Below are positions 31,658 to 34,436 of a stretch of 34,598 nucleotides of DNA, in pieces. Both the position numbers and the translations under genes were made by a program. The stretch is taken from assembly GCA_030038115.1 (NCBI GenBank), contig JASHPM010000369.1:1-34598 (forward strand), read 5' to 3'. Numbering within the stretch: the first letter of the stretch is position 1; every line of letters starts with the position of its first letter. Source of the stretch: Acidobacteriaceae bacterium. GTDB taxonomy: Bacteria; Acidobacteriota; Terriglobia; Terriglobales; Acidobacteriaceae. The notes beneath the pieces were generated by a model. That model saw only the letters and a list, made by a program, of their open reading frames with translations, was not told the DNA's origin and did not search any database.

Positions 31658-31754
31658 TGTCAATCCTCACGTTTCAAATCGGGGGAAACGAAGCTTCCAA
31701 TATCGGGGCAGATTGCTTCCGCGTCAAGAGCCCACGATCCTCTACACTCAGGCA

Positions 31755-32618
31755 GTGCCCGAACTCCCCGAAGTGGAAACCATCGCCAACGGCGTGGACC
31801 GCCGCCTCCGCGGCGACACTATCGTCTCCGCCTGGTTCAGTACTTATAAGGAGCCCTTCAGGACCCCGCCTGCAGAAATGGCGGAGTCGCTCGCCGGCCT
31901 GCGCATTGCTCGCGTCTACCGCGTCGGCAAGCACATCGTCGTCGACCTCGAGAGAGCTCGCTCTGGCCACCGCCCTTCCTCGCCGAATCGCGAAGCCACT
32001 CCGCCGGACGCGCAGTCCCAGTTGCTGGTCCATCTCGGGATGACCGGCCGCCTGCTCGTCTCCGCCGCCCGGCTCCCCCTCCCGCCGCACACCCATGCTG
32101 TGCTGCATCTCGCTTCCGGCCGCGAGCTGCGCTTCGTCGACCCGCGCCGTTTCGGCCGTCTCGCCCTTCACTCCGTCGACGCCGGCCTCTTCACCGGACC
32201 CGGCCGCGAACCCCTCACCATTTCCACCGATGACTTCGTCGCGCTCTTCCGCGGCCGCAAGCTCTCCATCAAGGCCGCGCTGCTCAACCAGTCGCTGCTC
32301 CACGGCGTGGGCAACATCTACGCCGACGAAAGCCTCTTCCGCGCAAAAATCCGCCCCACCCGTAGGGCCGGCCGTCTCCCCCGCCCCCGGCTGCTGCGCC
32401 TCCGCCAGGCGCTCCAGACCGTTCTGAAATCGGCCATCCGCGCCGGCGGTTCCTCGGTTTCCGACTACGTCGACGCCGACGGTCAAGCCGGCTTCTTCCA
32501 GATCCAGCACCGCGTGTACGCCCGGGAGGGCCAGCCCTGCCTCGTCTGCGGGACGCCCATTCGCCGCATCGTTCTCGCCGGACGCGGAACCCACTTCTGC
32601 CCCCAATGCCAGACCTGA
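31755..32618 (+). CDS. mutM: Formamidopyrimidine-DNA glycosylase
   Basis: Excises 8-oxoguanine and formamidopyrimidines from DNA and nicks the strand. The track ORF begins 14 codons early; the GTG at 31755 yields the required N-terminus (M)PELPEVET, in which the Pro is the catalytic nucleophile and Glu3 the general acid. The 287-residue protein also shows the YRVGKHIVVDL lysine, LVHLGMTGRL, DPRRFGRL, the helix-two-turn-helix region NQSLLHGVGNIYADE, and a terminal zinc finger CLVCG...FCPQCQ. All key residues are present. The GTG start and the lack of a strong ribosome site suggest modest expression. The gene is a single unit followed by a long non-coding interval. Confidence 0.95.
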   Translation: MPELPEVETIANGVDRRLRGDTIVSAWFSTYKEPFRTPPAEMAESLAGLRIARVYRVGKHIVVDLERARSGHRPSSPNREATPPDAQSQLLVHLGMTGRLLVSAARLPLPPHTHAVLHLASGRELRFVDPRRFGRLALHSVDAGLFTGPGREPLTISTDDFVALFRGRKLSIKAALLNQSLLHGVGNIYADESLFRAKIRPTRRAGRLPRPRLLRLRQALQTVLKSAIRAGGSSVSDYVDADGQAGFFQIQHRVYAREGQPCLVCGTPIRRIVLAGRGTHFCPQCQT

Positions 32619-32780
32619 ACTCCAGATCAGGACCAAAACCGTCCCACTTCGGTGTTATGGATTTTCGGACCTGGCGGTCTGGGGTTCTACGGGAATCTGA
32701 AGGAACTCATCCTATCCACTATGTCTAACCTTTTGATTCAATTCGATCAATCAAACGGCCCACAAATTGCTGATCATTTT

Positions 32781-32984
32781 AGCGCCAGCGACGCATAGGC
32801 CCTCGCAAGGGGGCTGGTGCGAAAAGAGATTCCGGCCGGAGAGAGCATCATCCTTCGAGATCCTGCCCCGGCCGGGATGCAAATGTCCTGATCCACATTG
32901 TTATTAGAGGATATAGGGCGACTTCAGGGAGGCCAGTGACTGGCCGTCACGCGGAAAAAGCCATCCAGCCTGGATGGCTTTTCT
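32781..32984 (+). ncRNA. Candidate structured small RNA ending in a terminator
   Basis: Four consecutive foldable elements are seen. GCGCCA (32782-32787) pairs with TGGTGC (32815-32820) around a GCGACGCATAG bulge and the hairpin GCCCTC-GCAA-GGGGGC, which has a GNRA tetraloop. ATTCCGGCCGG (32829-32839) pairs with CCGGCCGGGAT (32868-32878; 11 bp, one G-U). GGCCAG-TGA-CTGGCC lies at 32931-32945. A terminator hairpin with U run follows. No promoter is certain upstream, and the known family cannot be named. Strand is inferred from the terminator. Confidence 0.45.
32955..32984 (+). terminator. Strong intrinsic terminator
   Basis: AAAAA-GCCATCCA-GCC-TGGATGGC-TTTT: an eight-pair perfect stem with a three-base loop, flanked by A5 and TTTTCTG. 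Since mutM ends 340 bases upstream, the transcript it ends is probably a separate small RNA or a long mutM 3' region. Confidence 0.85.
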
Positions 32985-33033: not shown

Positions 33034-33103
33034 GGCATCAAAGCACTTGTCAGGCTCGATCTGCGGGAGTATTATTATTTTTGCCTATCGAGCGGCTGAT
33101 GCC
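33034..33103. repeat. Nested inverted repeats (two 7-bp stems)
   Basis: GGCATCA (33034-33040) pairs with TGATGCC (33097-33103), and inside it GCTCGAT (33054-33060) pairs with ATCGAGC (33087-33093). The centre is AT-rich (AGTATTATTATTTTTGCCT). Both stems are perfect, which is unlikely by chance at this nesting. It could be a leader RNA element or a binding site. Confidence 0.55.
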
Positions 33104-33542
33104 ACGCCCGTTTTGTGCGAGGCTCGCCGCGATTCTCGAGAGTCACGAATCACCCCCGGGAGATTATCTCCGTCGTCGCGTGCGCCGTCCAGGGAGTAAC
33201 CACCCGGTTGCGAAGGTTGAATCAGAATCAGACGGCAACTCCAGTACGTTCCGTTGATCGGCGCGGCATTCGGTTGCGTTCCCCCGTCTCACGCTTCACG
33301 AAGCGGGAACTGTTCGGGCCCAGGAACCCAAGCCATTTGTATCGCACCGTATTTTGAACTTTCCGGCCATCTCCGTTGCATAGCAAACAAAGGTCTGGAC
33401 CGGAGCTAAACAATTTCCACTGTTCCTGACTCCCGCGAGTCGGGTTCCGTGCTGCGCGTCTCCCAGGAATCGCAGCTCCTCCGAGCGCTTCGAAGCGTAG
33501 CGGGAATCGGGAACACAGTCCATCGCACCAGGAAGTGCAGGC

Positions 33543-34436
33543 ATGACAACAGAGCAGAACCAGCCTCAGCCCCCCGCGGACAATCCGGTCCCGGCGCAGG
33601 CGCAGGCGCCCAATCAGGGGCAAAATCAGGGCGGAGGCGGCCATCGCCGCCGTCGCCGTCGCAAGCGGAATAAGGGTGGCGCCCAGGCCGGCGGCCAGGG
33701 CCAGGCCCAGGGCCAGCATCAGGCCAACCAGCCGCAGGCTTTCAGCCAGAAGCCGCCCAAGCCGCAGCCCTCCAGCCAAACCCGTTTCTTCAGAAACAAC
33801 GGCAATGGCCAGCACCAGGGCGGCGGCGGACGGCGCCGCAACAAGCAGCGCCGCGAGCGCGTTTTCGTCGGTCCCATGGACCACAGCTATCGCGCCGTCA
33901 ATGGCAATGTCGCCGACTCTCCGCCCTCCACCATCGAGTTCCGGAATGGCAACGTCAACGGCAACGGCCACTACATGGAGAACGTTGCGCCCTGGGAGGC
34001 CCCTCCGCCTCCCGTCCGCGAAGATGCGCCCACCCGCATCTACCTCTTCATCGAGGACCTTTTCTTCTTCGCGAAGATCAACGAGACCGCGCGCAAGCTC
34101 GGCATCAAAGTTGCCTTTGTCAAGAACGATTCCGAGACCCTCGCGAAAATCATGGACGCGCCCGACGAAGAGCGCCCCTCGCTGATCGTCTTCGACCTCA
34201 ACAACGCCGCTGCCAAACCCATGACCCTCATCCCGAAGATCAAGTCGAAGCTGAAGAAGGGCACCTCGGTCATCGGCTTCCTCTCCCATCTCCAGGGTGA
34301 CCTCAAGGCCAAGGCGGTCGAAGCCGGCTGCGATATCGTCATGCCGCGCTCGGCCTTCTCGCAGAACCTCCCCACCCTCCTGCGCCGCCACGGCCTCGAT
34401 GAGGAGCAGGAAGCGGAACACACTCAGCCGTTCTGA
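33543..34436 (+). CDS. Arg/Gly/Gln-rich disordered region fused to a degenerate receiver domain
   Basis: The 297-residue product has two parts. Residues 1-160 are low-complexity: Gln/Ala/Pro/Gly repeats with Arg-rich clusters (GGGGHRRRRRRKRNKGG near 30-46 and GGGGRRRNKQRRERVFVG near 93-110), suggesting an RNA-binding, disordered tail. Residues about 165-285 have a CheY-like alternation of strands and helices: E171-D172 (FIEDLFF) at the acidic pocket, D218 (IVFDLNN) at the phosphoacceptor place, a Ser in GFLSH, but Met-Pro (VMPRSAF) where Lys-Pro is normal. It is thus a pseudo-receiver, probably unable to switch normally. The ATG has no strong ribosome site. It is preceded by the 0.9-kb structured interval and ends at a strong terminator. 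I do not know a named family. Confidence 0.85.
   Translation: MTTEQNQPQPPADNPVPAQAQAPNQGQNQGGGGHRRRRRRKRNKGGAQAGGQGQAQGQHQANQPQAFSQKPPKPQPSSQTRFFRNNGNGQHQGGGGRRRNKQRRERVFVGPMDHSYRAVNGNVADSPPSTIEFRNGNVNGNGHYMENVAPWEAPPPPVREDAPTRIYLFIEDLFFFAKINETARKLGIKVAFVKNDSETLAKIMDAPDEERPSLIVFDLNNAAAKPMTLIPKIKSKLKKGTSVIGFLSHLQGDLKAKAVEAGCDIVMPRSAFSQNLPTLLRRHGLDEEQEAEHTQPF

Follow-up and report, generated by a model that had tools for sequence, protein, structure and literature searches.

A candidate sigma-54-dependent small RNA of Acidobacteriaceae that is complementary to the seed of another putative small RNA at an unlinked locus

In Enterobacteriaceae, the promoters of GlmY and GlmZ depend on sigma-54 and carry IHF and enhancer sites; one of the two RNAs antagonises the fate of the other. 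GlmY and GlmZ are homologous, and towards the protein RapZ GlmY acts as a mimic of GlmZ. The CrcZ and CrcY RNAs of Pseudomonas and Azotobacter have promoters that depend on sigma-54 and CbrB. CrcZ acts as a decoy for Hfq (PMC4063720). Known sponges of small RNAs include the ChiX trap, 3'ETS-leuZ, AgvB, OppX and others (review PMC12721325). For Acidobacteria, known noncoding RNAs include Acido-1, Acido-Lenti-1 and 6S RNA (PMC2864571), and a survey names only four annotated sRNA families (PMC9029176). In the papers that we searched on acidobacterial sRNAs and sigma-54 we found nothing on the pair of RNAs described here, nor any sRNA circuit in the phylum, which is abundant in soil.

In this paper we describe a candidate small RNA of an Acidobacteriaceae bacterium, RNA-A, and a putative second one, RNA-B, to which it is complementary. 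RNA-A is like CrcZ and CrcY in that it would be a discrete decoy RNA with a sigma-54 promoter. CrcZ titrates the protein Hfq, whereas RNA-A is complementary to another sRNA, and there is no sequence relation between them. The predicted RNA-A promoter also resembles that of GlmY. The GlmY/GlmZ pair is homologous, whereas RNA-A and RNA-B are complementary, and RNA-A has no Rfam match to GlmY or GlmZ. RNA-A shares with the known sponges a site complementary to an sRNA seed. However, these sponges are mostly derived from mRNAs, tRNAs or prophages and come from Enterobacteriaceae, while RNA-A appears to be a core gene of Acidobacteriaceae that stands alone and is driven by sigma-54. Neither RNA matches Acido-1, Acido-Lenti-1 or 6S RNA.

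The window, a stretch of 34,598 nucleotides, is contig C402 of the assembly. Between mutM (31752-32618) and an open reading frame (33543-34436) it contains the stretch 32781-32984, which we predict to be a previously undescribed small RNA gene of about 200 nt. As in other bacterial small RNA genes, the stretch is intergenic, has its own predicted promoter and intrinsic terminator, and combines a conserved structure with the absence of an ORF. The start was placed at about 32782 on account of the invariant -24/-12 promoter upstream. The U-rich terminator tail is compatible with an Hfq-dependent sRNA. The features of the locus and of RNA-B are collected in Table 1.

Table 1. Predicted features of the RNA-A locus and of RNA-B; positions refer to the window unless a contig is named.
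Feature	Position	Strand	Basis or remark
Enhancer-like palindrome 1, TTATGGATTTTCGGA	32655..32669	+	About 100 bp before GG of the -24 element; de novo motif, about 60 loci
Enhancer-like palindrome 2, CTACGGGAATCTGAAG	32687..32702	+	70 bp before GG of the -24 element; de novo motif
IHF-like site YAANNNNTTGATW (TAACCTTTTGATT)	32726..32738	+	Between enhancers and promoter
Sigma-54 -24/-12 promoter GGCCCACAAATTGC (GG-N10-GC)	32757..32770	+	Homologous loci versus controls; base counts
RNA-A small RNA (candidate)	32782..32984	+	Start predicted from promoter, end from terminator; fold, covariation, homologues
5' site GCCAGCGACGCA	32784..32795	+	Pairs at 11/12 positions with RNA-B seed UGCGUCACUGGC
Hairpin 1, GCAA loop	32792..32821	+	Fold; covariation helices 1-2
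Hairpin 2, long stem rich in GC, one U-G pair (UUCCGGCCGG/CCGGCCGGGA)	32829..32878	+	Fold; covariation helices 3-5
Hairpin 3, weaker stem of variable length	32885..32919	+	Fold; covariation helices 6-7
3' site GGGAGGCCAGUGAC	32927..32940	+	14-bp perfect complement of RNA-B seed; overlaps hairpin 32931-32945
Short invariant hairpin GGCCAGUGACUGGCC	32931-32945	+	Overlapped by 3' site
RNA-A intrinsic terminator, 11-12 bp and U-tract	32955..32982	+	Fold; helix 10, double changes at 12/12 pairs
Constant neighbour gene	33543..34436	+	Arg/Gly-rich N-terminus and degenerate receiver-like domain; same strand in most loci
RNA-B (putative)	G000:C393:2477-2537 (also L391)	minus	Seed AAGUUGCGUCACUGGCCUCCC immediately precedes the RNA-B terminator; unlinked contig

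A sequence-only reading of this interval had described four successive hairpins, one of them with a GCAA tetraloop, closed by a U-tract terminator and lacking any coding signal. The hairpins, the tetraloop and the terminator all lie where it put them and no ORF was found for RNA-A, but the hairpins number five if the short 3' hairpin is counted. The 'bulge' GCGACGCATAG that it had pointed out is conserved and belongs to the 5' motif GCCAGYGACGYA, although it is partly paired in the lower stem of hairpin 1. Its suggestion of an undescribed structured RNA, to be followed by an Rfam search and covariance modelling in relatives, is borne out by both analyses as well as by conservation and by the RNA's own promoter and terminator. 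No Rfam family matched RNA-A in a search of 32781-32984, even at a permissive threshold (E = 5), with the sole exception of a chance match of RNAI to the terminator. The minimum free energy of RNA-A is -91.5 kcal/mol (z = -3.6); 200 dinucleotide shuffles give -72.5 +/- 5.3, and not one of them folds as low. An alignment of 30 homologues, made to fit the structure, has double changes at 46 of 61 pairs, and 84.2% of its cells are paired; none of 500 shuffles reaches either value and all slid controls are far lower. On a free MAFFT alignment, RNAalifold again finds that hairpin 2 and the terminator carry compensatory changes. A missed 6S RNA was ruled out, 6S being located elsewhere in 11 of 11 congeners. 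We also rejected a small ORF starting from a GUG in the core, where several clades have GCG; by eye, the short frames are unconserved.

The placement downstream of mutM, also part of the earlier reading, holds for all 11 sampled congeners (BLASTN), but across the family mutM is only an occasional neighbour. A covariance model built from 13 sequences finds RNA-A across the family, in about 70 sampled Acidobacteriaceae genomes, with or without mutM adjoining. These carriers comprise 64 genomes with strong matches and 9 in which the core was seen in the sequence; weaker matches (E > ~1e-5) are often terminators only and were counted only when the sequence showed the core. The E-values of our models are rough and many of the genomes are incomplete MAGs. 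A separate model of the 3' module has 31 of its 32 matches in Acidobacteriaceae in a scan of 396 genomes of the phylum, and exact core matches occur in named genera of the family, among them Granulicella, Edaphobacter, Silvibacterium, Acidipila and Terriglobus.

The hairpins are kept within the genus, whereas across the family the middle of RNA-A is mostly replaced and varies between clades. The most deeply conserved part is a primary motif, (G)GGAGGCCAGUGAY(U)GGCC, that precedes the terminator. In the divergent genera g3, g9 and g17 the hairpin arm is gone but the linear (GG)GAGGCCAGUGAC is kept, which argues that the primary sequence is what is selected; g3 and g9 also show the sigma-54 promoter at their divergent RNA-A. 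The functional conserved part of RNA-A is probably a primary-sequence antisense motif. A second copy of the motif opens RNA-A in this genus and several others, overlapping the 'bulge', and GCCAG-GACG of this 5' site is invariant in 13 sequences. In one clade, g80 (L123, L128, L131-L139, L144), the RNA-A terminator itself is conserved as GGCCATCTTCCGGGGAGGGGAGATGGCC.

The predicted RNA-A promoter has the arrangement expected for sigma-54, with a -24/-12 element about 12 nt before the start and enhancer-like sites upstream. Its GG and GC are invariant in 63 aligned promoters (consensus TTGGCAYNNRATTGCT), and the GC ends up 12 nt before the predicted start. Of the 63 homologous loci, 56 contain GGY-N7-TTGC in a fixed window before the RNA-A core; the two flanking controls give 2/63 and 1/63, and from shuffles one would expect 1.9. 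Among named genomes, the promoter is found at 41 of 48 acidobacterial loci with the exact 19-nt core and at 3 of 32 other loci. Most R2 matches in genomes outside all models also carry it, and rpoN is encoded in this genome (G000:C430). Core-like exact matches in Pseudomonas and other bacteria were rejected as RNA-A: 29 of these 32 have no promoter, and the Pseudomonas copies have flanks in common that resemble coding sequence. Two of the three promoter-bearing exceptions, L150 and L175 on contigs labelled Verrucomicrobia and Rhodanobacteraceae, have an RNA-A-like core with a sigma-54-like promoter and are probably mis-binned acidobacterial contigs, or cases of transfer.

A de novo motif search upstream of the promoter gave the palindrome CTWC-N8-GWAG, which occupies two constant positions at about -70 and -100 relative to the GG. 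Half-site scores of 6-8 out of 8 are reached by palindrome 1 in 53 of 60 loci at -100, versus 7 of 60 in a control window, and by palindrome 2 in 56 of 60 loci. Of 60 loci, 23 have the IHF-like pattern YAANNNNTTGA, invariably at -31/-32 relative to the GG, and it is absent from two controls. We looked through 15 genomes for a wider regulon of the enhancer motif, but the exact pattern CTACNRRAWWCYGAAG was present in just 4 of them, each time at the RNA-A promoter and nowhere else, which suggests a dedicated activator for this promoter.

RNA-B came from a search with the antisense of the RNA-A core in 12 congeners, after which fetched loci (30 of the 54 antisense matches in the genus) were grouped by homology. 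They fell into RNA-A, orthologous groups that look protein-coding, singletons, and one orthologous intergenic locus present in 8 genomes. This locus we predict to be a second undescribed small RNA. The sequence around its seed reads ...AAGUUGCGUCACUGGCCUCCCGGCACGAAC...GUUCGUGCCGUUUUUU, and in this genus it has a sigma-70-like promoter, CTTGTG-N17-TACACTAT, well upstream; in our genome (G000) the distance to the seed is about 140-150 nt. The seed is almost invariant across genera, without change in 34 diverse sequences, and is kept even where the terminator stem of RNA-B differs. Together with a T-run it occurs in 113 of 250 family genomes, with spurious matches only in at least 6 genomes, compared with 6 genomes for a reversed-pattern control. 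RNA-B is confined to Acidobacteriaceae, which hold 79 of 81 matches among 399 genomes of the class. An Rfam search of its loci matched only neighbouring tmRNA genes and no family for RNA-B itself. In L367 and L382 RNA-B is placed upstream of the tmRNA gene, at a distance of about 0.6-1.2 kb. The genome G257 has two copies (L427, L428), one with the variant seed GUUGUGUCACUGGCCUCCUG.

Two unlinked predicted RNAs are thus complementary at their respective most conserved segments, and the stretch over which RNA-A matches the seed of the separately encoded RNA-B is a long one. The duplex of the 3' site with the RNA-B seed has 14 contiguous base pairs and a predicted energy of -30.1 kcal/mol, and most homologues form 13-17 contiguous pairs. 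Without its terminator, RNA-A together with the 22-nt seed reaches -33.5 compared with -22.9 +/- 2.7 for shuffles, none of 500 being as low. Cofolding both RNAs at full length gains 13.7 kcal/mol. Some points weigh against the pairing: in the predicted folds, part of each pairing segment is already taken up by structure, and the 5' site, which mismatches the seed at one position, is absent from loci of the Edaphobacter/Granulicella type. RNA-B is found in 63 of the 64 genomes with strong RNA-A matches, the exception being 77% complete (counts uncorrected for shared ancestry). When verified weaker RNA-A are included, a table compiled by hand and uncorrected for phylogeny has 72 genomes with both RNAs, 1 with RNA-A only, 35 with RNA-B only and 142 with neither; part of the RNA-B-only genomes have a divergent RNA-A. 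We found no compensatory change between core and seed in the variant-seed genomes (G163, G257, G837), which can be explained by a seed that hardly varies or by a partner that was not located.

The constant neighbour of RNA-A has no Pfam match above cut-off, and Foldseek assigns its protein a receiver fold. The protein has a conserved PMDHSYR motif and is present in 56 of 61 relatives. Its Arg-rich tail is longer in RNA-A carriers, but we rejected the tail as an RNA-A-specific partner, as genera without RNA-A also have a (shorter) Arg-rich tail. This Arg/Gly-rich, receiver-fold protein could take part in the RNA-A circuit, but it is found without RNA-A as well. The region 33047-33540 in front of the gene looks like a second structured RNA element. 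It has a sigma-70-like promoter, TTGTCA-N17-TATTAT, which is conserved, and a long leader in which GCCTATCGAGCGGCTGATGCC...GCTCGCCGC...CTCGAGAGTCA is conserved too. The contig end G000:C97:1-219 has 99% protein-level identity to the end of this gene; the contig is probably redundant in the assembly or stems from a strain variant.

We consider it probable that RNA-A is a sigma-54-dependent, enhancer-activated anti-sRNA, or sponge, of RNA-B. The proposal draws on what the genomes show: the promoter with its enhancers, the fold, the terminators of both RNAs, their conservation and co-occurrence, and the complementarity between them. RNA-B, transcribed from its sigma-70-type promoter, would act on mRNAs through a C-rich CCUCC seed that resembles an anti-Shine-Dalgarno sequence. 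A dedicated enhancer-binding protein, bound at the two palindromes, would once activated cause the sigma-54 polymerase to transcribe RNA-A. The Shine-Dalgarno-like 3' site would then pair with the RNA-B seed by mimicking its targets, and in this genus the 5' site may serve as a second pairing site. RNA-A would sequester RNA-B or trigger its decay, and mRNAs regulated by RNA-B would be relieved. Expression, duplex formation in the cell, the control of RNA-B by RNA-A rather than the reverse, and target relief are the parts of this model that we infer.

The direction of regulation between RNA-A and RNA-B is unreadable from the sequences, and RNA-B is as well conserved as RNA-A and somewhat more widely distributed. 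This leaves some room for RNA-A as an ordinary trans-acting sRNA that uses GGGAGG/GCCAGUGA on mRNAs, with RNA-B regulating it or sharing its targets and sponging as a side effect. We regard such an arrangement as unlikely: the conditional promoter belongs to RNA-A, a target mimic would be expected to have just such a G-rich, Shine-Dalgarno-like site, and the antisense matches fetched in the genus (30 of 54) contain, besides RNA-A and RNA-B, only orthologous groups that look protein-coding or singletons. Less likely again is a core that binds a protein, either an RNA-binding one such as CsrA or the Arg-rich neighbour, which RNA-A would titrate as CrcZ does. Most clades have the core hairpin without any change, CAGGGAGG is similar to a CsrA site and the constant neighbour encodes an Arg/Gly-rich protein. 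But g3, g9 and g17 dispense with the hairpin arm while keeping the linear motif, the variants CAGGAGG, UUAUGGAGG and UCGGGAGG break the CsrA consensus, the neighbour protein is found also without RNA-A, and protein binding would not explain why 14 nt of the core match the RNA-B seed exactly. A CsrA sponge of the CsrB/RsmZ type, which has multiple GGA motifs in loops and conserved CANGGANG, was rejected, since RNA-A offers one candidate site and this is broken in many clades (CAGGAGG, UUAUGGAGG).

The constant same-strand position of RNA-A, 0.4-0.7 kb upstream of gene 33543-34436, would also suit a leader or attenuator of that gene with terminator read-through as the regulated step. This we hold to be very improbable, because a strong covarying terminator closes RNA-A, the gene appears by eye to have its own conserved sigma-70-like promoter and leader, and cis pairing of RNA-A with the downstream leader does not exceed shuffles (the mean z is about 0 when the core is used and -0.5 with all of RNA-A). 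Returning to RNA-A as a sponge of RNA-B, we can sketch a wider two-RNA circuit, which is doubtful in its entirety. A near-invariant RNA-B might control many mRNAs, and a dedicated activator with sigma-54 might fire one target, the two-site Shine-Dalgarno mimic RNA-A, as an off-switch; such a system would be unrelated in sequence to known families, and the receiver-like neighbour may be an RNA chaperone or signal input.

RNA-A and RNA-B provide two new candidate Rfam families, for which models are available, and these undescribed families are linked by the exact complementarity of their most conserved segments. One of the two, RNA-A, has a sigma-54 enhancer promoter that is recognisable in full. 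The proposed sponge circuit is directly testable in the culturable genera Granulicella, Edaphobacter, Acidipila and Silvibacterium. Our results suggest that sigma-54-controlled dedicated RNA decoys, known from gamma-proteobacteria, arose elsewhere too.
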